DNA from: Isoetes taiwanensis
Taxonomy: Eukaryota > Streptophyta > Lycopodiopsida > Isoetales > Isoetaceae
Reading direction: 5' to 3'
NCBI GenBank assembly: GCA_021234155.1
Contig: JAJEKV010000011.1
Coordinates: 16,176,457 to 16,240,456, forward strand
Length of the DNA stretch: 64,000 nucleotides
Positions within the stretch are counted from its first letter, which is position 1; every line of letters starts with the position of its first letter. Below, in pieces: positions 2,137 through 17,549 of the stretch. The notes below the pieces were generated by a model, which was given only the letters and a program-made list of their open reading frames with translations, ran no database searches and was not told where the DNA came from. Position numbers and translations under genes: made by a program.

Positions 2137-2898
2137 CCTAAAATAAGCTATGTGAAGCTTCTATTCTTGCAATTTTTAAATAAATGACATGTCACATGCA
2201 AGAAGATCACATCTCACTATTGCAAGAACTCGTTGACAACTTGAAACAGCTTCCTCTCAAAAGAATCAGTGGAAGATGTTAAAACTTGTTCCTGGAGAAA
2301 CCTTTAATTATTCTTGATAAACCTTTGGCAGTCTCAAAGATCAATCCGAATCATAAGCTATTAGCTGCTATTTAACACAATGGGAATGTTTTTACAAACT
2401 TCTTGGGATAAGATCCTGAACTAATCTTAGCCCCTAGCACAGGAATGCATTCGCCCAATCAAGCCATATTTATAGGAAATTGGACAACTTTCAAAATGTA
2501 ATGAAACTCCAATTTTGCACTCGCTTAAATATATTATCTTCTTTTGGTAATTGATACAAAATTTTGAGATTGTTTTGAAATTTCTCTCCCCTCTTTCTGG
2601 CATCCATTCAGTAGGGTTTCATCCTATTGGCGCTGGGACTGTTTATTTGCAGCAATTAAGAAATCGTTCAATGGCCTACCATAAGAAAATTTAGATGAAA
2701 ACTTTTCATGGTCATGATTTGACAAAGTTCTCATCACTGTCGTTGGCTTATAGTTGCTACAAAAGATATTTATCCACGGTGACTTCTATAATGATCATAG
2801 GGTCCTGAGCAAAAGTAAATGATCTGTACCACTCCATGGTATTCTAATTAAAAAAAAATACCAGCCTGAAACAAAAATGGAGCCATATATATAAAACT
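2137..2898. other. Convergent intergenic stretch / APX 3' flank
   Basis: AT-rich sequence between the stop of the APX exons (+) and the end of the minus-strand coding remnant. It presumably contains both 3' untranslated regions. An AATAAA-like AAATAAATGAC lies at about 2178. No coding sequence is seen. Confidence 0.4.
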
Positions 2899-3318
2899 TC
2901 AGTGGCCTTCCAGACTCGTTAAATGCTTCTTAATTGCCCGATCTTTTCTATGGTGATTGCTCTGATCCCTCCTTGCATGTGGTTGCCTGTTCACACTTCC
3001 AGCAGTTTTGTTTGATGCATTTCCATCAGTTTCCAAATTTTCTCCATCCGTTTGTCGAATTGGCACATTGCCACCTCAGCCGAGTCCTTAAATCTTATCT
3101 TCTTGCTCCTCTCTTAAAGCCTCTGCTTCCTCGACACTAGCAACAGCTACTGATCCTGCTACCTTGTAGCTGTAGTTCTTACCATCCTTCACATAAAATT
3201 GTGGCGTGCCCCTTTCCCGCTCTTTGTAGGTTTGTGCTTGTGTTTTATATTTTGCACCTTCAACTTTTTTCGGACTATAATATGGCTCCCATTGTGCTCC
3301 AAGCAGTTCTGCTATTTA
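2899..3318 (-). pseudogene. C-terminal exon of an unidentified plant protein, two in-frame stops
   Basis: Reading leftwards on the minus strand from an AAATAG acceptor at about 3318, one frame stays coding-like for about 140 codons. It passes through AQWEPYYSPKKVEGAKYKTQ, TYKERERGTPQFYVKDGKNY and SYKVAGSVAVASVEEAEALR, and ends KDRAIKKHLTSLEGH before a TGA at 2899-2901. It is interrupted by a TAA (3088-3090) and, four codons later, a TGA. The TGA sits before GGNVP and fits a C-to-T change of an arginine CGA codon. The rich, charged, low-redundancy composition says real protein. I cannot name the family with confidence; a resemblance to the tail of plant CUE-domain (ASCC2-like) proteins is only a recollection. 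It converges on the APX exons. Upstream exons are not identified; a LINE fragment lies on that side. Confidence 0.55.
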
Positions 3319-4073
3319 TATTAGTCACTGATACAAGCAATTGTAAAAGTACCCAGTATTATTGATTATATAAATGCCCTTATTGAATTTTTTTTCATGA
3401 AAACAGAAATGGAGGTAATTGAGTAAAGATAAAATGATGGCCAACTTACTTTTAGGACTCTAACCATATGGACCAAATAAACCCTGGGCATCGTGTCCAG
3501 GATTGGAGGCTCTTAATCGTGACTAACTTATTTTAAAACAAACTACCAAATGCTCAATAGATGTGAGGTTAAGAACATCTACTATTTGTATGTATATCAT
3601 GGCATAGCCAACATGTCGTGCCTTGCTTTTTGATAAGTTGATCTTGCAATTACCAATTCATCTCTACTTTTAAACAAATTGCATTTCCCCTTCCCATTAT
3701 TGAAACTAGACATATGCCTTTAAATGCGATATAACGGCAAGTTGGCTAAGCCCAACAGTTGAAATTCTCTAGAGACTAGCTTAATTTAGATCTGTAGCCA
3801 GAGTATGTATCAGCAAAATTTGAGGTGGCACAAGATAAGACCGTTATATTCTTTATTTTATGATCCTAAGACCTTTTTTTTTGCCTAACAACTTTTTAAC
3901 CGTGGACGTAAAAATTCTTATCTTATCTTATCTTATCTTCTAAATGGCTTTGACTTTAACTTTAGATACAAGGATAAAAGATTAGCCAACAATCGCAGTC
4001 TAGTGATACCAAGCCTTAATAAAAACTTAAAAAGTCTTACCTTGCTAAAGCCTTCTGGTGTGCCTTTTGCTAG
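3319..4073. other. AT-rich stretch with no recognised gene
   Basis: Possibly intron of the minus-strand gene remnant to the left. It includes a (CTTAT)n microsatellite at about 3917-3941. No other structure is recognised. Confidence 0.35.
3917..3941. repeat. (CTTAT)n microsatellite
   Basis: Four to five tandem CTTAT/TTATC units in an otherwise AT-rich non-coding region. Confidence 0.75.
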
Positions 4074-4660
4074 TTTTTTTTTTTTGAAGAAGCGTGCATC
4101 AATACATTAAAAAGAATGGTAATGTTACAAAGCAAGTGAGGAGGAAGGATAAGCGCCCCAAAGAGGCGGCGATACCTCGACACTCCACAACAAACTCCGC
4201 GGAAAAACTGCAACTCTGCTTTGGCCTACAAACCGACCATCACCATCTACAACACCCAGAGTCCGCCAAATCGCCAAACTTCCGGCTCTACTAATCCAGG
4301 GAACACCGAGAAGCTTTTGAAGCGGCTTGTACACGGTCGAGGAATCCCGGAGAGAGAGGCTGCAGGGTTCTTTGAATCCCCGAAAAGATCCACAATGCCG
4401 CCCGCTTCCGTCAGCCACACCAACCAAGCCACACCACGGATGCAAGGCTTCTTTGCGCCAAAGTGGCCAAACACCGGGATACCCATGAAGCGACAAGCTG
4501 GCGGCTAGTCAATCTCACACGCGAGCCACGACCCAATCCCGAGGCGACACGCAAGTGAGGGCATAAAACCAGACAATGCTCCACAGTCTCATGATGAAGG
4601 CCACAACAAGGGCAGAGAGGGCTCACACCCGGCCTAAACTGACTCACAAGGGCATTCACC
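4074..4660 (-). mobile_element. LINE 3' fragment, reverse-transcriptase C-terminal zinc motif and poly(A) tail
   Basis: The minus strand encodes a short frame (4659-4411) whose residues 16-35 carry C-x2-C-x8-H-x4-C in the context CPCCGLHHETVEHCLVLCPH. This is the zinc-binding module found at the C-terminus of plant LINE reverse transcriptases. The frame then breaks up. The fragment ends, in minus orientation, with a 12-base poly(A) (T at 4074-4085), as expected for target-primed insertion. The polymerase core is absent, so this is a 5'-truncated dead copy. I looked for a target-site duplication beside the tail and found no convincing one. The right boundary is approximate. Confidence 0.65.
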
Positions 4661-4899
4661 TACCAATCATATTTTATGCTTACAGTAATACTCTAATGGC
4701 TTTTTGCAACGTGTCTTCGAGAAGCAACAAGGATCTTGTCAAGGTAAGAGTCGGAGAAGTGGGCATCAAGAGAAAACACGTTCTGGCCAAGCATTTCTTC
4801 CAAACTAGAGGAACCGGAGACAACAAAAGGTGGTGGAAGTTTGTTCACCAAGCGATTCACCATCTTCAATAACTGGAAAATAGTATGGAGACATGAGCA

Positions 4900-5130
4900 A
4901 CATTCTGAACTGCAGAACGATTGTTATTCCAAAATACAAGACCATACTGTTAAAGTAAGTCCCTTAAAAAATCAAGAAAAAGGGAAACTCAAACCTATTC
5001 TGGAATACACTCGAGCAGGATAGTAAGTCAAAATGTATTCCATTTTACATAGAAGAAGAGAAGGGCTCAGTGGCGACCTTTAAAAAGAAATTTTGGTGCC
5101 CACACTTTTGTATTCCAGTCTCCAGCTCTA
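4900..5130. repeat. Scattered TATTCC/GGAATA half-palindromes
   Basis: Several copies of a TATTCYRGAATA-like word occur at about 4924, 5000, 5033 and 5110. They match the motif forming the palindrome array at 13750-13946. No coding potential is recognised. Confidence 0.4.
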
Positions 5131-5169
5131 GTCGCCAGCGCTAGCGCCTTCGAAATTAATTGCAGAGAG

Positions 5170-5335
5170 AAATCATGGAGAGGTGAGTGCAGCAAGTACA
5201 TTATACGACTGTTTTAAAGTTTGTGAAGAGGTGAGTCGCGACAAATTACATTATTCGTATTAGTTTTGCATAGAAATCATGGAGAGGTGAGTCGCGGCAA
5301 ATTACATTATCACGTTGTTTTAAAGTTTGTGAAAG
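5170..5335. repeat. Imperfect tandem duplication, period about 104 bases
   Basis: The unit starting AAATCATGGAGAGGTGAGT at 5170 recurs at 5274, each followed by a CAAATTACATTAT-like phrase and GTTTTAAAGTTTGTGAA. A partial third copy (GAGGTGAGTCGCGACAAATT) begins near 5228. Each unit contains ATGGAGAG directly before GTGAGT, which looks like a minimal first exon with a donor site, but this may be chance. Confidence 0.7.
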
Positions 5336-5439
5336 CGGGGGATAGGTTAAATGCGTCACAATCTAATTCTGGCGTTATAAAGTTAAAAATATGTATTTTT
5401 TTGAAAGAGCGTATTTTCACATTATTTTTTTAGTCTCAG

Positions 5440-5735
5440 GCACGAAAAAATTTGGCGTCTGTGAAAACCTTACATTTCGCGTCTGCGAAACATTTTTATT
5501 TTATTTTTTTTTTTTTTTCAGCGTCTGAAAACCTTCCGCAACGAAGATTTCGGCGTCGCAGCGATTTTCAAATTTCAAATTAAAATTTTTTTTTTTTTTT
5601 TTTTTTTTGCTACGGCTTTATATAGTTTTGGCGTCTGCGAAAAAAGTTCAGCGTCTTGGCGGGTTTATAGGATTCGCGTACGTGAAATTCAAATTTCAAA
5701 TTCGTATGGGGAAAAAAAAAAAAAAAAAAAAACCC
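5440..5735. repeat. GCGTCTG / homopolymer repeat module
   Basis: Copies of a GCGTCTGCGAAA-like word at about 5456, 5479, 5520, 5630 and 5650 alternate with long T or A runs (T15 at 5504-5518, T23 at 5586-5608, A22 at 5712-5733) and with TTCAAATTTCAAATT phrases. The arrangement suggests a degenerate unit of 100-130 bases repeated two or three times. The GCGTCTGCG word recurs at 13571 upstream of the ParB-methyltransferase remnant. Confidence 0.6.
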
Positions 5736-5749
5736 TCAAAATTTGTTTC

Positions 5750-7110
5750 GGACTTCCATCCTTGATAATTCCTACTCGAAATATCAAATTACGCCTTTGG
5801 CGACCTTAGGAAATTATAGTTATTCTTTCTAAGCGGGGATAAGGTCATAACACAATTATTTTGTACTTTATAATACATAATAAATCTAATTGGTATCTTG
5901 AACATTTCATCATTAATACACAATTATTGTGCCAGAACATCCTTGTATTTCAAAGATAGAGCATTTTCTACTATTTTCCAGAAACAACCAACTCTACACT
6001 GCCTTTTTCAAAATAGAATACACTATCTAAGCTATTGCATCATAACCATATAAGAATAATGGTAGAGACTTTTTGTATTCCAGAGATTGAACTCATATGC
6101 TAAATTTCATAAATGTACAATTCTCAAAGCTTTAGTCAAGCTAATATACCAGATCTAAGCATTTTAACAAGTAAATTAACATGATCAAGTCTTTCTCATT
6201 GAGAAATAAAATCTCCATATTGGAACGAGCTTACTTGAAGTCCTTGCGAATCAAACCATAAGCTAAGAAACATCAAAGCATGGAGCAAGAAACCTGGTTA
6301 CCTGCAGTAGAACCAAAGGACAGTTAGCCTTAATCAGGGTAAGAGCCTAAGCTACTAGCAGTTGTGAGTGCTTGATGGGTTTCTTAGGTATTCCCCTTCA
6401 CCATGACTTTAATGGTACTAGTGTCGATTATGTACTCATTGAGAATAACTTCAGTTTCGGGACTTATGAGCGGCAAAATCATATCTTTGTCCTAATTAGC
6501 CGGCCAGTTCGACTAGCATGTAGTCATAATTATCCGACATATAGTCACCGGGTACTCCTTACCTTGGAGTCATATCTAAAGCCCAACTAATCATTTATAT
6601 TTCTTGTACACATACATCATTAGTGCGACAAGTGTAATGCAATCAAGTAACTTCCTATGCAATTGTATCGGCATAAACAACATTGTATACTCTACGCTAT
6701 CCGCCGGACACTGTTATTTTAAATTTTTCAGCGACAAATGCATTATCTATCTAGCAATAGATTATATCCACGCCCGATAGGATCCGGCAAATTCAGCGAT
6801 AAATCTATGGACGATAAAATCTATCCATAGATCACGAGTACCGGCACCGGACCTAACATAGATAAAAGCGACAAAAGCACCAAGTGGTATATTTTCCTAA
6901 TCTACCATTTTCTTCTATCTAAAGCATCTTTTTCTCTTATACCATGTAATTGTAGTGGATTTACTCCATTACTGCCTTAATATTAGTTGTGATGGTTCAT
7001 TTTAGCACCATCATTTGCAGTTTCCATCCTCAAAGGCTCATGCCCCTTCCATATTCATGTAAGCACCAGATCTAGCATTTTATCTATAATTTCTTCAAAC
7101 ATGAAACTAT
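5750..7110. other. No recognised gene
   Basis: AT-rich, non-coding in all frames as far as I can tell. A small perfect inverted repeat (ATCTATGGA ... TCCATAGAT) occurs at 6803-6832. Confidence 0.4.
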
Positions 7111-7118
7111 ACACTTTG

Positions 7119-7276
7119 ACCTCACTTTCTCTCTCTGACCTCACTTTCTCACTCTAGCGCCTAGCACTTTCTCGCTCTCTGACCTCACTTTCTCTCACTT
7201 TCTCACTCTAGCGCCTAGCACTTTCTCGCTCTCGACCTCACTTTCTCTCTCTAGCGCCTAGCACTTTCTCTCTCCA
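7119..7276. repeat. CT-rich minisatellite, unit about 50 bases
   Basis: The phrases CTCTGACCTCACTTTCTC and CTCTAGCGCCTAGCACTTTC alternate three times, with unit length varying through loss of short CT pieces. It lies just left of the GC-rich LINE-bearing region. Confidence 0.8.
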
Positions 7277-7289
7277 GCCCTCTCTTACC

Positions 7290-8790
7290 TTCTCTGCTTG
7301 TGTTAGTCCTTTCCCATCTAAGCCTATTCCAAAAAGCACATTCAAACCAAGCCCATACCAAAAATATTCCGACAACCCGGCCCAGTCGAACCTCCCCCCG
7401 GGGGTTGAACCCCCAAACCCCGTGCCAACCAACCAGGGCGGGCATCGTTTGTGCTTTTAAACATCTTCCAATTCTTCATAGCACTTTAGTTCTTTAATCC
7501 CCATCCATACCATACAACTTCATGGCGCTATTGTAGCCCCTTGCCCGGACCCCCATTTGGAGAGACATTCCCAGGTCCCCCGGCCCGGCCCGGCCCGGCC
7601 CACAGGAGAACCGGGGGAGGGCAGCCCGTAAAACGCCCCAATCAGATAACAAAGGCCGGGGGGAGAAACCTCTTCCATGAGGGAGGAAGCCCAGGCGAAG
7701 GCCCAATCTGAGATTGGCTTGGGAGATGGATGAAAGGCTGCTCAAGCTTCGACCAGTATGAGGCGGGCCATGAAAACATTTGGAGGAGCGGTCGAGAATA
7801 ACGAGGACCAGATGCGGGATTGGCAATGAGATACAATCCTCGGCATCCCATGTGCTCAAAAACAGTTGGCGGTGGAAGAGCAGCGGATTCTGAACATGGA
7901 ACCCGCGCCATGCGGCCGATTAGAAAGGCGGGCTTAAGCAGCCCACTTTGAGAGGAGCGAGGATAGCGGGGCCTTCTTGGAGCTTAGAGCTTCCGCGTGG
8001 ATTCCCTCCCTCACCCGTGGAGACTATGGCATGCGACAAAAGGGGTGTGGAAGCGGGATCTGGTGGCAACTATTTCCCCTCGAGTGGTGAGGGTATGCCT
8101 TGTGATCGCGAAGCGTCCAGAGCCATCGTCGAAGCCAACCCGGCGACGCGAGAACCACTGCGGTAGAGCTGAGACACAAGATCGGGGAGATCCGGGGAGC
8201 TCAAAGCAACCATTGCCCGGCAAAGGCGGCGGCCTCCGTGCACCGGAGTCCATGAACACTGCGGCCTTTGCACAAATGAGTTGGCGAGGCGGCCGAGAGA
8301 TTCCAACAGGCTAGGCTCCGACTCCCGGCGGCCGAGCAGAGCACCAACACGGGGACGACCAAGCGCCACGTGTCCCACAGCCCACAGTGTAAGCAGGCGA
8401 CGAGGCGCCACCACCTCCTCCATCGCACACCACACGCCCTGGCGTGAGCCCACCACACTCCAGCAGCGTCACTGGCTGGGCCGACTAATGTTGCCCTCGA
8501 CTTCGGTGGCGGCCCGGAGGCGGGGGCAGCCCGGCGCCATAATGTGGTGGTGCGTGGACTTTCGGAAAGGGGCAGGAGAAGATCTCATCAAAGCGCGTGA
8601 GGATGAGATCCTATCTCGAATAGCATTCCCGACTGTGGTACAAATTGCTAAAGCGAGCCGCCTTGGGGCTCGGCGCCTGAATCGCCCGGCGTGTTGTCAC
8701 CTTCACGGTGGCGGAGACATGCGAGTACGGGAGAGCCATCTGCGTCAGAGTAGACAACTGAAGGGGCGCTACGTATGTTGACCGGGATCT
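7290..8790. other. GC-rich region, possibly the degraded 5' part of the LINE
   Basis: Composition rises sharply in GC from about 7370 and stays like the LINE that follows. Frames at 7997-8314 and 8281-8781 are arginine-, serine- and proline-rich. LINE ORF1 proteins can look like this, but I find no convincing CCHC knuckle or coiled coil, so the 5' end of the element is not assigned. Confidence 0.3.
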
Positions 8791-9369
8791 CACCCGATGC
8801 AAGGAGTCCCGTGGCGGGTGGCCCGGGTCGGGCGTCCCGTGTGTAGGGGGGCTCGGGAGGGTCATAAGGCAAGCAGCATTTTCGAGGCCGGCGCCTTTCT
8901 TGAGGTAACCCGAGCAATGCGTCGAGTGCTGCCACTCTGCTGCTTCTTTAGCTGCTGCCCGGTACCCCTTTTGCACCTCCACGCTCCTGCTTTCAATTTG
9001 CTTTGCTTTCGGTAGCACTGCTGCTCCCACTACCAGCGGAAGCCGGATCATGGCGTCCACGCCGAGATACCCGGCAAATAGGGCATTGCCTCAGGATGGT
9101 GTCTTGGAGGCTGTCGGGGCTTCCCCTGGCGAAGGCGGAAATCTCAACTCTATTGCACGGATATGGATCTCATTTCCTCCTTGGAAACATGGGAGCATCA
9201 CGAGGCCTGACGCCGAACCTCGAGGCTATCTGCATTTCGGTGTTCAATGAGTGCCGAGGGCAAGCGAGGGCATGGCGGGGTTACTGCTACTACCGTGCAA
9301 CCTTGAGGCACTTTCGGTCGTTGCACAAAGCAGGCAGTGCAATGTCGCTACTTGTGGGTGCTGGCGTCG

Positions 9370-9880
9370 CGGCATGGCGATGGCGACACTCTCCTCATAG
9401 CGACATGCTACTTTCCACATCTTGAGAAACTTTTATAACACTCATTCCGGATGTAGATCGATTGGAGCCTTATGTCGATCTATATGATGACATCTGGCGG
9501 CAAAAGCGGTTAGGCGGGGTTATGTTGCTTGGCGACTTTAATGCCGCCCAGAGGCGGCGGTTCAAACTTTGAGCCCCTGGCGGAAGGGGCGTCTTCTTGG
9601 TGAACCCAGCGAGGTGGCGGTCAAAAGGATATCGGATGACAGACCATATTTGGCGCTATAGCGGCGATTCTTTATTCTTTGGGTAGTATCTTTGACACAG
9701 TTATCGTAATGGGTTGGTGCAATGGCGAATCTTCATTTTTGCACTTGTAGGCGGGGAGAACCAAGGGGCTCTCGGTGTGGTGGATTATCTGGCGGTTGAG
9801 CGAAGTGCACACGGTTACTCATTTTCCATCGGGACGGAACACTTTCGGGGCCAGTAGACTCCGACCACCGCCCCTGTTCA
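9370..9880 (+). pseudogene. LINE endonuclease domain (exonuclease-endonuclease-phosphatase fold), broken
   Basis: Target-nicking endonuclease of the LINE. Visible in shifting frames are an ATCYFPH-like strand near 9405, then DDIWRQKRLGGVMLLGDFNA ending at 9545, where LLGDFNA is the conserved D-x-N motif. VVDYLAVERSA follows near 9778-9810, equivalent to the family's DYxLVS strand. A degraded SDHRPL-like terminal motif (RPPPLFIHL) lies near 9865. A stop at 9436-9438 and several frameshifts break it. Confidence 0.75.
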
Positions 9881-10299
9881 TACATCTCGGTGGGAAGCTC
9901 CCGTGCACCCTCTTGCCTCAACTTCTTGGGTGCCCAGTGCGCTGGACTACGGCCGTGCGGGGACCTATGCCCGGTTGGCAGGCATGATCTGGCCCGGACT
10001 GCGCAACTCCCCACACTTCAAAAGAACAATGCGCTCGGTGACTCACACCGCCGGCGGTTCGAGAAAGATGCTTTGGGAGAGCCGCTCACGGCAAGCCTCG
10101 GGAGCACCACCACCTTCCCCTTAGCCGATGGTTTGATGATGAGTGTCGGGGAGCTCAAAGCGCACACTCCGGCAAGTCAGCGATCCCATCTCTAAGCCCA
10201 CATGCCGTCAGTCAATACCGTTCCTTTCTCAAGAACAAAGAGGCCCCGATACCTCGCGAGCATCGGCCAGATGTTTGGTCTCACGGGCCCGGCACCCGG

Positions 10300-11600
10300 A
10301 CGATACGGAGAAGGGTCTTGAGCAAGCTGCCGCGACCCGGGGGAACATCACCTCGGACAATGGGTACGATGCTTGCAGCAGTGTATGACCAGCTTTCGAG
10401 GGCGAGCACCCAGTCCCTCCTGAATAGGCATGGCTCTGGTTATCCGCAGAGGGGGATGTCATCATGGGCCTACAAGCGCCCTAGCTAATGGGAAGGCAGC
10501 AGATTTAGATGGCATGCGGTGAGCTTACGAAATGGGGCGGGCCTCCAGTGGTGCTGTTCTCACGGCATTGTTCAATAAAGTATTGCGAGAAGGCTTCCCT
10601 CGCCAATGGACCACTAGTAGAGTAGTGCCCATATACAAAGCGGGGACCCTCAATGTCCAGGCCAACTCTACAGCACTATTATGGTCAGCTCTCTTTTACC
10701 AAAGCGTTGGGTGGCATCCTTGGCGTGGTGACAATATAGGCGGAGAAGCGGAGGTCTGACTCTTACCGCGAGGCGGGGTTTTATTTGACGATTCCACCAT
10801 TGATCATATCTTCACTCTGCGCACATTGATTGAAGATAGCGAGGAATCATAGAGCGGGGACACATGCTTGTTGTTTTAATTGGATTTTGCAAAGGCATTC
10901 GACCACGATTACCCTTAATAAGCTATGGGGCGGTTCGGTGGTAGGGGACCCCACGGACTTCGAGAATCGCGGTATATAGAACATCATGAGGCATGCTCGG
11001 GCCGTATCACATCGGCCAACCACGACCGGTGACCCGGTAGCATTGGAGTCGCGTCGGGGTTGCCCCTCTCCCCACACTCTTTGGCACATTGTGTGTCGGT
11101 TGGAAGATTGGCTCTACGAGCATGGAGGTCTTGGCACATATCATGCATCACACAATCCGACAACTCATATATCTTTGGCGATGTCAACCTCATGGCCTAT
11201 ACTCCGGAGGACATTACAGCGTCACTGGATGCTCTTGACACTTTTGCCAATTCAGCATGCAAGTTAACTTGGCCAAAACTAAGAATTTGCTAGTTGCATC
11301 ATCCCGTTAATGGGCCGCTTCCCATTCACTTACGGGGGCAAGAGGTAAAGGTGGCTCCGACCTACAAGTACCGGGGATTGAGTTCTCAACTACCACCCAT
11401 TGGGATCGCGGCTATCGGGTTGCGGGGTCACTACGGGTTGGAAAACACTATATGCCATGCGAGAACAACGACCACAAGGCGAGTTGTATGCACAGGGTCA
11501 CCGATCACATTTGTTTGGACCTTGGTTGAGCCCGGCCCTTTTTGTATAAGAAGGCGAAGTTTGGGGTCGGTGATATCCCTCAACACACAGGAATGACCTC
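10300..11600 (+). pseudogene. LINE reverse transcriptase, broken
   Basis: Copies element RNA into DNA in live elements. Segments in order: GFPRQWTTSRVVPIYKAG (about 10590-10645), TIDHIFTLRTLIEDS (about 10797-10840), DFAKAF for catalytic motif A near 10884, RRGCPSPHTLWHI (about 11050-11090) for the conserved QGCPLSP stretch, and FGDVNLMAYTPEDITASLDA near 11171-11232. The last segment replaces the catalytic YADD, so the second aspartate is lost. Segments lie in different frames with stops between them, so the enzyme is dead. DWLYEHGG- and LDALDTFA-like phrases are typical of plant and algal LINEs. Confidence 0.85.
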
Positions 11601-12129
11601 GGCGGTGCGAAGGCCTTCTTGGCACGGGCCACAGGGGTGAAGTCCGCAGTTCCGTACGGATCCTACTCGAGAGGCGGTTTCTACCCTTCCAGCGGGCTGC
11701 ATTGGAGCGCCATATCGTTTACTTCAAAGGTGGTGGCTATGGCTGATGCGCTTGCCCTTGCTTTAGCCCGGGCAATGGGTCCCCAGCGCCTGAAATCTGC
11801 TGGAAGACAAAAGCGGGACTCGGTGGTTCTCCACCCGGGGTGTCGCGGGGCAAGCGGATGTATCGAGTCGGGACAAAGAAAGATCGCCCGAGGCACTTAA
11901 ACTATACCTTGATGCTACTTTCCTTGGCGGTACGTGGGATCACGGAGGCTCGACACATATTAAGGCACACTATCGGCTGACAAGTCAATCCTAGGCTCAC
12001 AAGAGGCCCACACGGTGCCCAATACACCCGACTACCCATGAAGAAGCGGGGCTTATAGCTTCCATTCGCCGCGGGGCACATCGCCTCCGCATTGCTGCGT
12101 TGGGCGCCGTGAAGCTGCGGGAGCAAAGG

Positions 12130-12230
12130 CTTTACCGATGTTGCCACCGTAGCGATTGAGGATGAATGTCATGCCCTCGGACACGCCCGGCATTGCCCAT
12201 ATCAGAAGCGGTATGTTCGATTACTAGTGC
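12130..12230 (+). pseudogene. LINE C-terminal Cys/His module
   Basis: Two cysteine codons near 12139 are followed, after a one-base shift, by IEDECHALGHARHCPYQKRY (about 12154-12213). This matches the C...C...H...C module after LINE reverse transcriptases. It supports the orientation and near-completeness of the 3' end. Confidence 0.6.
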
Positions 12231-12515
12231 ACGGCCAGCCGTTGCATCGGTTATTGGCTCTACGGCGTCCCGATTGGGTTTGTTGGGGTCCTTACCTCGA
12301 GGGAGGTTATGGATGCCGCGGACTTCGTTTGTGTCCCTGGGGGCCGGTATTGAGCTGTCTATGCAATTTATGCGATGTGCGGCGCGGGCTTATTAACTGC
12401 TAAGGTTTTTCCCTCAAAAACCCTTGGGTAGGGGTTTTAATCACATCCGATAATATGCTTGCTGCTCTCTTTTGTTTGGGTCCCATAGGCCAATTGGTCT
12501 CCGTGGGCCTAAAAC

Positions 12516-12544
12516 CTATTCTATTCTATTCTATTCTATTCTAT
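12516..12544 (+). repeat. (CTATT)n tail of the LINE
   Basis: Five perfect CTATT units plus CTAT end the element, about 120 bases after the last coding remnant. Microsatellite tails are known for several LINE clades. Confidence 0.75.
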
Positions 12545-13440
12545 GATTCTACTTAGCACCTGGCGGCACTATTCTCATTTAAAATGCATAAATGCAAATA
12601 GGTTGGCATAACACGAATGATTTTTAGCTCGCTCCGGGCAATCCCTTGAGTTGTTTTGCTGCTGCTATATTTACTTGATCCTCCTTTGTGTGACCATCAT
12701 TGTAAGCAAGGATATCTTCATTTTCCTTGAACTTGGCTAGAAGCTCTTATTTTTCCGCTATAGCTATGCTACCTGCGCATTCTTTCAGGTATTCTCATCA
12801 TTCCCAACAGCTACCTTAGAAATTTCTAGCTCTTCAAGCTGATTTACTTGGTGTTTCCCAGCCTTCCAGGAATGCCCAAATCTTAGCATCTATGCGTAGG
12901 GGCGGAATTGAGTATCAAGCGGATGCCCCATTGCGCATTTTTATTACGCTTTGATCGCGCTAACAGAATTTACCACTTGGCATTAAGCCACCTAGTTTTG
13001 CTTCTATATCGTGAATATTATCCAGAAGTTTCAAATACCATTTTCTTTTCTTTTCGGCTACTTCTCTTGCCGAGGCGTACATCTCTATCTTAACCTTGTA
13101 TGTATCGTAGGAACCCTAAGTTCTGGTGGTATCCGGAACCCTAAAGTGTAACAATTCGTAGCCACAAGTGTTTATTTTTGTTTTCATGTCCCTTACATGT
13201 AACATTTATTTATTCTCAAATTAGCCCAAGGGTCCAATTTTATAAAGGTCTTATGTGTCCACATATCTCAGGATTTATCCTTGGCATTATGCTAAGCCTC
13301 ATGCCATACAGAATGTTTGCCAAATCCCATAGCCCTGTATGTAATTTCACTGACCATTACCCAATCTTGTTGTATAGTTTACAGCTTCTTATTTATGCAT
13401 ACCTTGTTTCCATGCACATCATAACCTTAGCACCAAATAT
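12545..13440. other. No recognised gene
   Basis: AT-rich. On the minus strand, 12860-12600 reads in pieces like a charged, helical protein (for example LEELEISKVAVGNDEN and KMKISLLT fragments), but no family is recognised and stops interrupt it. Confidence 0.3.
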
Positions 13441-13449
13441 GGTCATATA

Positions 13450-13640
13450 ATTAAAAAAGGGGGTTTTTTCTTGTTTCCTTTGCGCCAAAGCGAGGAAGGT
13501 TTTCGTCTGTGGTTTTTATTTTTATTTTTATTTTTATTTTTTATTGCGTTAAGCGTCGTGAAACCTGTTGTTTCCCGCGTCTGCGGTCGTTTTAAAATTC
13601 TGCGAAAATCTTCCGGCATGAAAATTCTTTTTCGCCGTAT
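13450..13640. repeat. GCGTC / (TTTTTA)n repeat patch
   Basis: Contains (TTTTTA)n at about 13514-13546 and the words GCGTCGTGAAAC and GCGTCTGCGG, resembling the module at 5440-5735. Confidence 0.5.
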
Positions 13641-13680
13641 TTTATCGTTTTTATATATGCAAATATGTGCATTATCCTTA

Positions 13681-13782
13681 CAATTCATCATTATTAGGTA
13701 TAAAGCGTTACAACATATTGAACCTATCCCTGGTGAAGAGTTGGAACCCTATTCCGAATACAATATTTTCTTCCAGGACTAG
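13681..13782 (+). other. Possible upstream exon of the ParB-methyltransferase gene
   Basis: After an ATTATTAG acceptor-like site, the frame reads YKALQHIEPIPGEELEPYSE and runs to a TAG at 13780-13782. It is coding-like in composition and lies in the right place and strand to be an earlier exon of the gene starting at 14127. No clear donor follows it and the sequence matches no family I know. Confidence 0.25.
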
Positions 13783-13946
13783 TTAAAGTGTATTCCGGAA
13801 TACACGTTGGTAGAGAAAAACAAGAGTGTATTCCGGAACACAAAAGTGTATTCTGGAATACACATTTGTTTATCTCTAAAGAGAGAGTGTATTTTGGAAT
13901 ACACTTTTGCTTTCCCTGTGTAGAAAACGTGTATTCCAAAATATAC
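13750..13946. repeat. Array of spaced 18-bp palindromes (GTGTATTCCGGAATACAC)
   Basis: A perfect palindrome sits at 13788-13805. Near-copies start at 13826 (16 bases), 13846, 13887 and 13929, and a shorter TATTCCGAATA is at 13750. Start-to-start spacings are 38, 38, 20, 41 and 42 bases, close to multiples of about 20. The array ends 180 bases before the first exon of the ParB-methyltransferase remnant. It could be a set of protein-binding sites, a hairpin-forming minisatellite or a local expansion; the sequence alone does not decide. Confidence 0.8.
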
Positions 13947-14126
13947 TTTAGCTGTTTTTGAAAGTGAATAATGTGTTTTCAAAGTGCCTTCAAAGTTTCA
14001 TATTTTTACTTGCAAAGGCTAGTTTTTGTAAGGCTTAAGTACAACATTTCCTAAATTTTATTTCAGAATATGTTTTAGTGTCAATTTTATCTTCTTTTAT
14101 TACTTTTCACAATAGTTTTTCCACAG

Positions 14127-16668
14127 GCAAGAAGAAAGCAAGAGAGCTCCTAAAAGGACACTCAAGATTGTCAAGAAGCCACATCCGCGGGCAAAGGTCC
14201 AGGACACATCTGAGCTAGCAATTTATGAAAACTTTCAAACACAATGATTCATAACGAGGATGCACAACGGGAAAGTACAACACCCTTACTTTCTTGCATG
14301 TCTGCAGAAGTCCTGAGCAGAAGAGGTATGCTGAGAGCGAGTTTGTGTGCATGGGTACATCAAAGAAGTTTCCGAGGTTGCCAGTTAGTCTGGACAACAG
14401 GGACGGCTCTACTTTAAAATGTTCTAAGGGTTTTGTAGTTGTTGACTAGGCATTTTGCCAACTGGCTAGAGTGACCCTCGAAGCCCTCTACAAGTACATG
14501 GCATAAAATATATCAACAAAGAGAGGCTCGGTGATATCATAAAGAGGGTCCAATCTACTCAAAGTGAGGACTTCTCGTACAGTGATTCAGAGAACGAAAT
14601 TGTAGAAGAGGAAGGGGCAAACGTTGATGGTTCTAGTCAGGATGAACAGAACCAAAGTTCTAGTGAATCAGAAGAGCAGCGAAGGAAAAGCAGGCCACGA
14701 GGCACCATTGCGGAGCCAAGGAACCAAAAAAATGCAAGTGCAGCAAATTGAAGTGGAAAAAATTCCAGAAGGAAGCTCCAAAAGAGAAAAAGGCAAAGGA
14801 AAGGGACCAGGGGTGGTTATCAAGGAGAAGAAGGTGGACAAGACTCGGAGAGGATGGAAGAAATAAACTTGCACAAGTATGTGCAAGGTGTAATTCACTT
14901 GCCAGTAATATCCATGAGGTTGCCACCAAAGAATGAAGCTGGTAAGAGGCCCCTTCATGTTCGAAAAATTTATGCTCACCATTTAAGGAACTTGAAGGAC
15001 AGGATTAGGAGCAACCCCAATGCTCATGTAGCTCCAATGGTTGTCCTTGTGGACAAGAATACATACCCCACAGAGTATGGCAGAGAGAATAAAGACATTT
15101 ATATGCATTATTTTTGGAAGGTAATCACAACTTCAAAGCAAGGAGGCAGCTGTATAAGGAAAAGATCGTTGCCAACACGCACAGCATTGATAACGAGAAC
15201 AAACTCAAAATGAGCTTCGTCGACAAGATAAGATTTATGCACATAGAGTATATAATATTCAAAGAAAAATACGGCGATGACCTCAAGAAATCGGCAAACT
15301 CTTTGAAACTGAAGGAGGCGGTGCAATCGAATGCTGCCATAAGTACGATGAGGCTAAAAAAATGGCAGTCACTGATAAGCCATGACGATTGGTTCCAACT
15401 TGCTTTTAGAGACAGCAGAGTAAGTTCGTCTTATATTCCGGTATAAGTTTTTCTGTCTAACTGCCCATGTCTCGCACTAACAACCTTCCATTTGCAAGTG
15501 CAGATCTAGGTAAGTCGTCTTCTTGTATTTCTTCTTTAGCTTCCATGTTGTACATTGTTGCAGTAACGTTTTCTTCTTACAGAGAAGAAAGAAGAACAAG
15601 GACCTACCAGAGGGCTTCATACGCTTGGTAAGGACAACCTGGGAGGAGAGGTCATTGGTGAACAGGCAGATTGTAGATGCTGAGCAGCCGACTATGAGAG
15701 ATTTAGTATGTTTGATCAAAACAACCTGTTTTTGACCATTCATGGGGACTGCACACTGTAAAGCTACAGGATTTTACTTTGGTCATAGCAGACCTTCCAT
15801 ATGGCTTTAAACTAAAGAACAAGCCGCTATGACGACCAGCCTTTTAAGAACTCTGAATTCAATGCATTTGTCGACGACATTAAATAGATCACAACAGCCA
15901 AGCATTGGTGTCTTGTTGTATTTCACTCGAGCATGCAAGCAGGACTTGTGGAATCAACCTTCAAGAACCACTTCGGATCCCCCGTGTAGGAGGTTATGAA
16001 AACATGGTCTGGTAAGGTTCTTATTCTGAAATACAGTTGTTTCTTACTTATTCTGTTGTTGAAGTTGCTTGCATGTTAACCTTCTTGTTTTTATTTTCTA
16101 TTTTGGAATACGGTACATTTAGTCCTAGTTACCTCATTGGAACAATGTTTAGTTTTTGTTGCTAACTGTACTTCTTTTATATCTGTAGTTACAAAACGAA
16201 TATTAATCACCACGATGGAGGATACAGATTGCTGAGCAAGGTGGAATATCAGAAGCCACAAAAACTGATCAACCATCTTCTTGACATGTTCTCACATCCA
16301 GAGGAATCGGTTGTGCACTTAAGAGGGGCTGCAATTGTGTAGCCGTTGACATAGATAAGGAGGTTGTGAATTTTATCAAGATGAGATTGGCTGCCTTACC
16401 AGCTTTACCAAACGTGAATCAAGAGTTAGACGCCAAATCTTCATCTGATTATACCAAGATGACATCTTCAGAGATACAGTCTTTGTTTACAAGCTCTCTG
16501 GACGATGAAGCTATCTTTGCAGAGCTGAAAGAAGTAGCTCTAGCTACTATTCCCGAATACAATGTAGAAATAGACAAGGGTAAATCACCACAAAAGGAGC
16601 AAATGACAGAGAAGGACAAAGCTGAAACAAGCAATCAAAATGAGGAAGACTATGATCTAGATCCCTAA
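14127..16668 (+). pseudogene. ParB-like / amino-DNA-methyltransferase fusion gene, intron-containing, broken
   Basis: Exon 1 (14127-15419, after a CCACAG acceptor) begins with a damaged basic stretch, then an acidic, serine-rich linker (about 14509-14700). The ParB/sulfiredoxin-like domain follows (about 14850-15200): LHVRKIYAHHLRNLKDRI, APMVVLVDK and EGNHNFKARRQLYKEK, equivalent to the family's GGxH box. Exon 2 (15583-16011) has VIADLPYGF at 15782-15808, equivalent to the DPPY catalytic motif IV but with Leu for the first Pro. Then come FKNSEFNAF and HWCLVVFHSSMQ. Exon 3 (16189-16668) has LINHLLDMFSHPEESVV, CVAVDIDKEVVNFIKMRL and an acidic tail ending DYDLDP. Motif order IV before I is that of beta-class N4/N6 methylases. 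The FxGxG S-adenosylmethionine loop expected between HPEESVV and CVAVDID is deleted. A TGA (14749-14751), a frameshift in the T run at about 15111 and further stops add to the damage. Introns 15420-15582 and 16012-16188 keep GT/AG. Confidence 0.6.
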
Positions 16669-17549
16669 GCTGTCTTATGCAAAAATATTTATTGTTAACA
16701 CTATATTATTGCCAAAATTGATGTACTAAAAAAGTTTAAAAAAATAAGTATCATTCTTTCTACGTTATTTTGATGTTTTTTATATCTTACTCTCAGTGAT
16801 TTGTATATTCATGTCTGAATTTTGCCATTTTCAAGTGTTTTTCTTTACAAAAACAAGGTTGTCCCTTAATGAGGACCCAAAATGCAGGGAAAAATAATCC
16901 GAACTTTGCATCAAGGACGACAAGTATGCCATCTGCAAAAAATGAGCTGGTCACAAGGTGACCGAGGGAGTGGGTTTCTAAAGGGACTAGATGACAAACT
17001 ATAGACACGAGGAGAATGGGTTTCAGAAATAGGCGTACGAAAAAACTCTCGTGATTCTTGAGGACCAAGGATTTGAAAGGGGAAGGTATGTTATAGGAAG
17101 ATCATGGGGCAAAGTCCTAGGAATTTAATCCTTCTACTAGAGGTGATGTGGCATCAACCGATTGGCTGGAGGAGATAAAAGCCAATCGTCCACCTATGCA
17201 GGGGCCGATCAGGAACCTTCTTTTGGTGTTCCGGTTGCATCATTTGATGCACTAATATAAAAGAATTGCGCAGCGAGCCCTCAATCATATTCTAGACATA
17301 CACATTCCAGTTAATTAACACATCCAATGAAAGCAAGTATCTGCAATGATTTATAGAAGACACCAACAAAAGAATATACAGAAATTTTCTATTCCCAACT
17401 TCACTTTAACAGATTAAGCTCTGATTTACAGCATAAAATGTTAAAAAGGATGAAGAATTGCTTTTACCATACCACGATGAACGAACTCAGCTTAATGTTC
17501 ATAATATGTACAAAGTAGAGGAAGAAACTGAAAGATAAATGCCAATTCG
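16669..17549. other. 3' flank; no recognised gene
   Basis: AT-rich at first (probable 3' untranslated region of the preceding gene), then a non-coding stretch with short purine-rich pieces. Nothing else is recognised. Confidence 0.35.

Follow-up and report, generated by a model that had tools for sequence, protein, structure and literature searches.

In a stretch of 64,000 nucleotides from the plant Isoetes taiwanensis (the window), the feature at positions 14127–16668 is a defunct copy of a DNA transposon carrying a DUF7869 gene and, divergent from it, a gene joining a ParB-like domain to a DNA amino-methyltransferase (MTase), hereafter the ParB-MTase gene. Better-preserved copies elsewhere in the genome fall into four diverged families, all of which keep both genes and each of which has a palindrome of its own that is repeated in noncoding parts of the element. 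Our working hypothesis is that the ParB-MTase reads and methylates the palindromes of its own family and would thereby mark the element as self against silencing. For this chain as a whole, we consider the arguments for and against to be evenly balanced.

A DNA transposon with two divergent genes

To place the window copy, we searched the 1.658-Gb assembly (1110 contigs) with three queries; genome-wide candidate counts are rough, and the best 150 candidates were scored for each query. A 117-amino acid (aa) ParB fragment of the window copy gave 2043 candidates, while the profiles PF01555 (MTase) and PF25273 (DUF7869) gave 1444 and 9908, respectively, with all 150 scored candidates above the cut-off for both profiles. 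The preliminary description of the window, made from its sequence, had predicted relatives elsewhere in the genome, and this was borne out: all 150 scored ParB matches are relatives, and intact-looking copies are among them, an open frame of 400–587 aa being listed for 36 of the 150. For 32 of the 150 ParB matches, one of the 150 MTase matches lies 1–3.5 kb downstream on the same strand, and for none does one lie on the other strand or on the mirrored side. Similarly, one of the 150 DUF7869 matches lies 2–6.5 kb upstream on the opposite strand for 17 ParB matches and on the same strand for one. Eight 10-kb stretches were fetched for long ParB frames (L011–L018, four of them extended upstream), 18 loci were chosen by DUF7869 as stretches upstream of DUF7869 matches (L034–L037 and L039–L052), and L038 was chosen for having DUF7869 and MTase matches together. 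Clear ParB or MTase exons were present in 14 of the 18 loci chosen by DUF7869; L048 gave a weak match to the N-terminal domain only, and no ParB-MTase exons were found in the 5–6 kb read of L039, L046, and L047.

The element copies that we read are 8.0–9.7 kb long and have imperfect terminal inverted repeats (about 24 bp, about five mismatches). By alignment, the 5′ end is ACAAGATTGCGTATTAAACGGGAGC in L011 and L017 and ACAAAGTTGCG in L013, and the 3′ end is CTCCCGTTTAATTTGCAAYNNTGTT (CTCACG in L011); the ends follow the pattern ACAA(G/A)(A/G)TTGCGTATTAAACGGGAG and, on the other strand reading inward, ACANN(A/G)TTGCAAATTAAACGGGAG, the latter with one change in L011. In the flanks, read by eye, 5-bp target duplications are exact in L013 (AATAA), L017 (CTCAA), and L038 (CATTA) and have one mismatch in L011 (AAGTA/AAGTG). 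Inverted repeats together with fixed-length duplications, which define a cut-and-paste transposon, were found in these four copies, the ones read at both ends; for L016, the 5′ end could not be located. The minus-strand gene matches DUF7869 (E=7.4e-53) and is broken in most translated copies, with frames of up to 987 aa elsewhere in the genome; its product is taken to be the putative transposase. The ParB-MTase gene is on the plus strand, divergent from it. Shared ends, 5-bp duplications, and the DUF7869 gene uphold the earlier suggestion that the feature belongs to a mobile element, and in the anatomy taken by itself, a DNA transposon carrying a DUF7869 gene and a divergent ParB-MTase gene, our confidence is very high. 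A host gene is ruled out by copy number and shared ends, and bacterial contamination by the introns and by scaffolds of many Mb. L046 holds the start of the DUF7869 gene without a ParB-MTase gene or a palindrome array in the 6 kb read, and it is possible that it is a sister element lacking the ParB-MTase module.

The ParB-MTase gene joins two domains and is under selection

In L011, the ParB-MTase gene can be read as five exons (2435–3821, 3889–4118, 4480–4618, 4686–5128, and 5257–5925 in oriented locus coordinates), all with GT-AG sites and in-phase joins; the frame is open up to a frameshift about 60 codons from its end. L014, L015, and L016, modelled in the same way, all have frameshifts, and the splice sites are common to several copies. 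Because intact copies have two extra exons with GT-AG sites where the window copy is collapsed, the full gene has at least four introns, and because an acceptor precedes the first L011 exon, at least one further exon lies upstream. We also considered that ParB and MTase might be two separate genes, and this is ruled out by the in-phase L011 introns and the constant order. The order of the domains, the splice sites, and the five-exon reading of L011 support the view that a ParB-like domain and an amino-MTase are encoded in one intron-bearing plant gene, as had been proposed from the window alone.

The spliced L011 protein matches N6_N4_Mtase (PF01555) with 63.6 bits against a cut-off of 26.7 (E=3.4e-17), and its MTase part matches the phage MTase family phrog_67 (E=7e-24). 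The motif D[LI]PYG precedes DAFSGSGTT, and both are invariant in four aligned members, one per family; the second residue of motif IV, usually P, is L or I here. On the profile match and the motif order, the MTase half is classified as a beta-class amino-MTase. In the PDB, the sequences closest to it are those of the adenine MTases CcrM, MboIIA, and RsrI, with CcrM nearest to a four-family profile (2.9e-14), which is only a hint of adenine specificity.

The N-terminal half is less straightforward. Of the two profiles proposed for checking the preliminary description, N6_N4_Mtase matched but Pfam ParB_N (PF02195) did not, giving no genome match at E≤1 (2 candidates) and none in the six members scanned. 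Over the same six members, other ParB-like models matched: phrog_1033 at 4.3e-6 (two members), phrog_6392 at 0.0054 (two), phrog_723 at 0.026 (four), and NCBIfam TIGR03764 at 6.6e-4 (two), the last far under its curated cut-off. The matched region of the first member holds a GG[NT]HS[FY]KAR box and LTDEEA. The ParB-like assignment, which rests on these models, the motif, and the place before the MTase, is good but not certain, because unrelated families reach similarly weak scores: among Pfam families IgA0_D2 (0.011) and Phage_connector (0.012), and in the PDB DHFR-TS (0.043), with sulfiredoxin only at E=2.3, behind unrelated chains. Moreover, the box reads GGNHS or GGTHS in six aligned sequences, with Ser at the position of the Arg in the G-x-x-R expected of a ParB box. 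In the middle exons, a helix-turn-helix can be read by eye only and was not recognised in profile scans. The failure of ParB_N, the scores of unrelated families, the Ser in the box, and the unrecognised helix-turn-helix all count against a ParB-like protein that binds DNA through these parts.

The composition of the protein also bears on a counter-defence or restriction-modification-like function, in which the ParB-like domain would be a nuclease and the MTase would protect the element's own sites. Nonspecific nicking is reported for the ParB-methylase Bce_0392 of B. cereus in the available part of one study (PMC5512222), but no restriction-endonuclease family is among the matches to the ParB-MTase protein, the Arg of the ParB box is replaced, and a nuclease would probably be costly at high copy number. 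We consider a function of this kind quite improbable.

The ParB exon is under purifying selection. For exon 1 in six intact copies (15 pairs), the median ratio of nonsynonymous to synonymous substitutions (dN/dS) is 0.126 (0.067–0.349) in the 12 usable pairs, that is, those with dS of 0.03–1.5, all copies having been chosen for open frames. For MTase exon 5, one of three pairs had a usable dS and gave 0.20, for exon 4 none of three was usable, and the single usable pair for the DUF7869 gene gave 0.09. The idea that the ParB-MTase gene is just carried along, having been captured from a prokaryote by a transposon and having drifted since, can draw on the many broken copies, the one in the window included, but is contradicted by the dN/dS of 0.07–0.35 in 12 pairs and has against it the persistence of the catalytic motifs among families that are about 50% identical; we find it barely credible.

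Prokaryotic and viral relatives were found for the MTase half. A phage search gave 987 records for the MTase, all less than 60% identical (21.6–25.0% among the 20 matches listed), and no match for the ParB half; a plasmid search with the MTase gave 100 records (25.8–28.1% identity among the 12 matches listed). Four phage and four plasmid matches were examined: seven fall in annotated MTase genes and one in a region without annotation, and because the genes are only 717–1089 bases long, these MTases are taken to lack a ParB part. ParB_N gave two matches in the eight records. In viral contigs, one MTase match of 25 residues was found and none for ParB. The plant MTase is thus distant from prokaryotic MTases, with 22–28% identity among the matches listed. 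An acquisition from prokaryotes, as had been suggested, fits the MTase half, for which the phrog_67 match speaks, whereas no support was obtained for a source or a date, and the ParB half has no phage match.

Four families have four different palindromes

Relative to family A, the ParB domains of the other families are 42–51% and their MTases 50–53% identical, and pieces of the DUF7869 gene are mostly 35–59% identical. Family A (L011–L018, L037, L038, L044, and the window) has the palindrome GTAT-TCCGGA-ATAC (GTATTCCGGAATAC), family B (L034 and L035) GTAT-GAATTC-ATAC (GTATGAATTCATAC), family C (L036, L039–L042, and L048–L052) GTAT-AAATTT-ATAC (GTATAAATTTATAC), and family D (L043, L045, and L047) CTAT-GCGCGC-ATAG (CTATGCGCGCATAG). 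In 26 of the 27 loci, one palindromic 10-mer occurs 4–32 times, as against at most three times in 50 simulations per locus that kept first-order composition (two AT-dinucleotide 10-mers were left out); the sole exception is L046, with only two occurrences. Exact copies of the 14-mers in the genome, compared with those of the reversed sequence, number 3720 vs 0 for family A, 64 vs 11 for B, 12556 vs 17 for C, and 1551 vs 0 for D, and the family A palindrome extended to an 18-mer has 2585 vs 0. When the centre of D is combined with the outer base pair of A–C, a single genome copy is left (reversed 0), so that more than the central hexamer is conserved in D.

Two side observations concern copy numbers. 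The 12556 copies of the family C palindrome are far above the candidate numbers for ParB or MTase, and many of them may lie in decayed or non-autonomous copies. The MTase matches at G000:C1037:14962111–14966840 and C1059:1168217–1173087 have family B palindromes at most about 1.6 kb away and therefore point to further family B copies.

The palindromes occupy both the stretch that separates the two genes and the ParB-MTase introns. We counted 433 sites in 26 loci, allowing up to two mismatches in family A and up to one in the others. Between the first and last recognised coding piece lie 326 of them, 321 outside coding sequence, where coding means pieces recognised by tblastn, so that an unrecognised exon would count as noncoding. 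The remaining five fall 15 bp downstream of the donor in intron 1 and were counted as coding because the exon query ran on into the intron.

Within the arrays, the core is more conserved than the spacer. Finding units by their core biases core conservation, and arrays of perfect period are the fairer test; in the two that could be used, core and spacer identities are 0.95 vs 0.62 (L014) and 0.97 vs 0.72 (L017), the core changes falling at the central CpG, while two of the four such arrays (L013 and L045) were out of register. The commonest spacings are 40–43 bp in family A, 39–41 bp in D, and 28–33 bp in C, that of B being left unused because family C sites contaminate it when two mismatches are allowed. 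Spacing tends to multiples of about 10–10.5 bp, a tendency noted without a null model. In L014 (4115–4483, oriented), the spacers between palindromes occur in both orientations as near reverse complements, as if array units had been flipped by recombination at the palindromes.

These data also address whether the palindromes are host transcription factor sites or simple minisatellites, with the ParB-MTase acting elsewhere. The arrays have tandem-duplication structure and a near-constant period, and the core of family A holds TTCnnGAA, which we take to be heat-shock-like. One host factor would, however, keep the centre constant, and the four centres (TCCGGA, GAATTC, AAATTT, and GCGCGC) are wholly different; the greater conservation of the core than of the spacer and the sites in introns, rather than just near gene starts, further argue against it, and we judge this explanation improbable.

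A proposed role in marking copies of the same family

We propose that the ParB-MTase, as a dimer and probably as an oligomer along the arrays, would bind the palindromes of its own family through its ParB-like and middle parts and, once bound, would methylate adenine there (N4-cytosine is less likely), marking copies of that family. The likeliest benefit would be that the promoter region and the gene of the element are kept open against host silencing, as VANC does for VANDAL elements. The palindrome centre and the protein would change together, confining the effect to the element's own family. We favour the ParB-MTase as the reader of the palindromes because of the ParB-MTase fusion itself, sites suited to a dimer, their arrays, their private centres, and their noncoding placement, and we favour DNA marking over genome defence because the palindromes are family-specific. 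L046, the only locus without palindromes, is likewise without a detected ParB-MTase. A fuller version, in which the element would have a self-contained adenine-methylation code, each ParB-MTase reading and writing only its own palindrome, spreading along the arrays in the way of bacterial ParB on parS, and keeping its family transcriptionally open, with new families arising by a joint switch of centre and protein, is put forward tentatively, as possible rather than probable.

Several observations weigh against self-marking by the ParB-MTase. L039 and L047 have palindromes, yet no ParB-MTase was detected in the 5–6 kb read, which leaves room for another reader, such as the DUF7869 protein or a host factor. 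Of the 433 sites, 96 lie outside the recognised gene spans, mostly in partly read loci, and 11 are in L047, which has no recognised exons. Family B is known from two loci and family D from three, and the regular spacing may result from tandem duplication alone. Finally, in the family A palindrome, each central CG position of TATTCCGGAATA is changed to T or A (TG/CA) in about one quarter of 150 sites, with hardly any variation at most other core positions. These changes suggest that family A sites in old copies become cytosine-methylated.

As the main rival, we consider a role of the sites for the DUF7869 protein or in transposition, such that methylation would couple binding or excision by the transposase to replication or to new copies, with the palindromes as sites where the transposase complex or the ParB-MTase would build a partition-like structure. 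A role of that kind would go well with the joint retention of the two genes in four families and with purifying selection on each of them (from one usable pair in the case of the DUF7869 gene), with sites that lie intergenically and not only in introns, and with spacings near multiples of 10–10.5 bp (again without a null model). However, the palindromes lie in the interior of the element, in L011 at a distance of about 1 kb or more from both ends, and there are none in the terminal sequences read. We regard a role in transposition as unlikely, and keep self-marking by the ParB-MTase as our working hypothesis.

Relation to known systems

The closest functional parallel to the proposed self-marking is the VANC/VANDAL system of Arabidopsis. 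According to the accessible text of PMC5735166, the short motif to which VANC21 binds occurs in noncoding repeats of that protein's own family, the targets of VANC6 carry different motifs, and the system comprises a DNA transposon, a second protein, and noncoding tandem-repeat motifs that differ between families. The Isoetes element likewise combines an element-encoded protein with family-specific noncoding motif repeats. It differs from the system as presented there (PMC5735166) in having a ParB-like amino-MTase and 14-bp palindromes, and anti-silencing was shown for VANC and is proposed here. Because no VANC-like domain is among the Pfam matches of the ParB-MTase protein (VANC itself was not compared), we suggest that the element works like VANC, not that it is VANC.

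Mobile elements with DNA-modifying enzymes and bacterial ParB-methylase fusions are already known. Fungal TET/JBP DNA transposons similarly keep a DNA-base-modifying second gene beside the transposase, but this is a dioxygenase (eraser-like) rather than a methyltransferase, and arrays of palindromes specific to a family are not described in the accessible text (PMC12730594). MTase-encoding mobile elements of eukaryotes or their viruses further include DIRS1-like retrotransposons, through a methyltransferase domain (PMC3266345), and virus-integrated Mariner elements (PMC3627910), but these belong to other element classes and, as far as the accessible parts of these sources go, have no ParB-like part and no such palindromes. 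Bacterial and phage ParB-methylase fusions such as Bce_0392 of B. cereus share the ParB-like domain and the adenine MTase, according to the part of PMC5512222 available, whereas the plant gene has introns, two middle exons, an extra N-terminal domain, and a DUF7869 transposon around it. The best-studied eukaryotic writer of N6-methyladenine (6mA) is MT-A70/AMT1, and the fungal MetB was acquired laterally from bacteria; both are eukaryotic DNA adenine MTases, MetB also being of bacterial origin, but in the available portion of that source no link to transposons is described, and MT-A70 is another family (PMC12695648).

With bacterial ParB-parS and plasmid centromeres, the element shares a ParB-like protein and palindrome arrays, with a spacing of about 42 bp in families A and D; plasmid centromere arrays include, for example, the 43-bp repeats of F sopC. 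The difference is that no partition role is implied for the plant element. In the open-licence literature searched, we recognised no published description of this element, and found no paper on DUF7869 or on a ParB-like methylase in plant transposable elements and nothing on an Isoetes DNA methyltransferase together with a transposase.

According to the accessible text of PMC12695648, eukaryotic 6mA is contested except in a few lineages. The element offers many copies of a prokaryote-type writer together with guessed target sites and natural controls, namely four families with four palindromes, and the question is therefore directly testable in a plant; Nanopore reads exist for I. taiwanensis (PMC8566536, available part). 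If the proposed self-marking holds, plants would have an epigenetic system based on 6mA that is carried by a transposon and separate from the MT-A70 (AMT1) pathway. The element would then be an independent evolution of the VANC strategy, which pairs family-private motif arrays with a cognate protein, with an enzyme replacing a DNA-binding protein, and it would supply new site-specific DNA MTases whose palindromic addresses are long.

The copy in the window

The window copy is in two pieces. The 5′ piece (4711–5153) comprises the start region of the minus-strand DUF7869 gene and the intergenic region (74.8% to L013 9528–9974 by blastn) and has one palindrome-like site at 4995; with tblastn, two query stretches of the DUF7869 gene gave no match in the window. 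A stretch of ~8.6 kb (5154–13784), probably one or more later insertions, separates the pieces and has no homology to the element, the blastn matches at 11357–12537 being to flanks of fetched loci and not to the element. This stretch is GC-rich (54–59% G+C across 8001–12000), and 11579–12537 is a 77% match to the L013 flank. The second piece begins with an array of the family A palindrome GTATTCCGGAATAC (13785–13957; sites at 13790, 13828, 13848, and 13889, with up to two mismatches). The same scan gave two further sites in the window, the one at 4995 and a loose one at 16547, which falls within the last exon.

The ParB-MTase gene follows on the plus strand. Exon 1 (14127–15419), with the N-terminal domain, a charged linker, and the ParB-like domain, starts after an acceptor AG at 14125–14126, is frameshifted, and matches L011 exon 1 by tblastn with E=2.5e-59 and 1.6e-41; its splice sites were read by comparison with other copies. 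Next come a collapsed intron (15420–15582), from which tblastn and copy comparison show that the two middle exons of intact copies are gone, the MTase exon with the DLPYG of motif IV and the FHSSMQ strand (15583–16012, frameshifted, E=2.6e-39), an intron (16013–16188) with its donor and acceptor at the same place as in other copies, and the last MTase exon, the motif I exon, with the VAVDID strand (16189–16668, E=1.3e-24 and 7.3e-11), which has an internal deletion and ends with a stop codon at 16666–16668. GNHNF lies in the frame within 15093–15446 and VAVDID in that within 16285–16668. Given these matches to the exons of L011, the resemblance is not due to chance. A 3′ noncoding part (16669–16904, plus strand) matches L013 by blastn up to 14260, where the L013 element ends at ~14386, and the 3′ terminus was not found in the window by this comparison.

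The GNH box, DLPYGF, FHSSMQ, and VAVDID of the preliminary description do lie on the plus strand, in the order that it gave. Of its two GT-AG introns, the second (16013–16188) is genuine, whereas the first (15420–15582) is the collapsed stretch lacking two exons. It was also right that the copy is broken, but the ParB exon is not nearly intact: both exon 1 and the motif IV exon hold frameshifts and stops, 22 residues are gone from the ParB box between YKEK and IVANTH, and about 50 residues of the last exon are missing relative to intact relatives. Because the copy is broken, a Pfam scan of the window's own fragments gave weak matches only. Window positions 14070–14442 are an 86% match to L013 2688–2321, a separate fragment on the other strand upstream of the L013 element; therefore, fragments of exon 1 are scattered in the genome as well.

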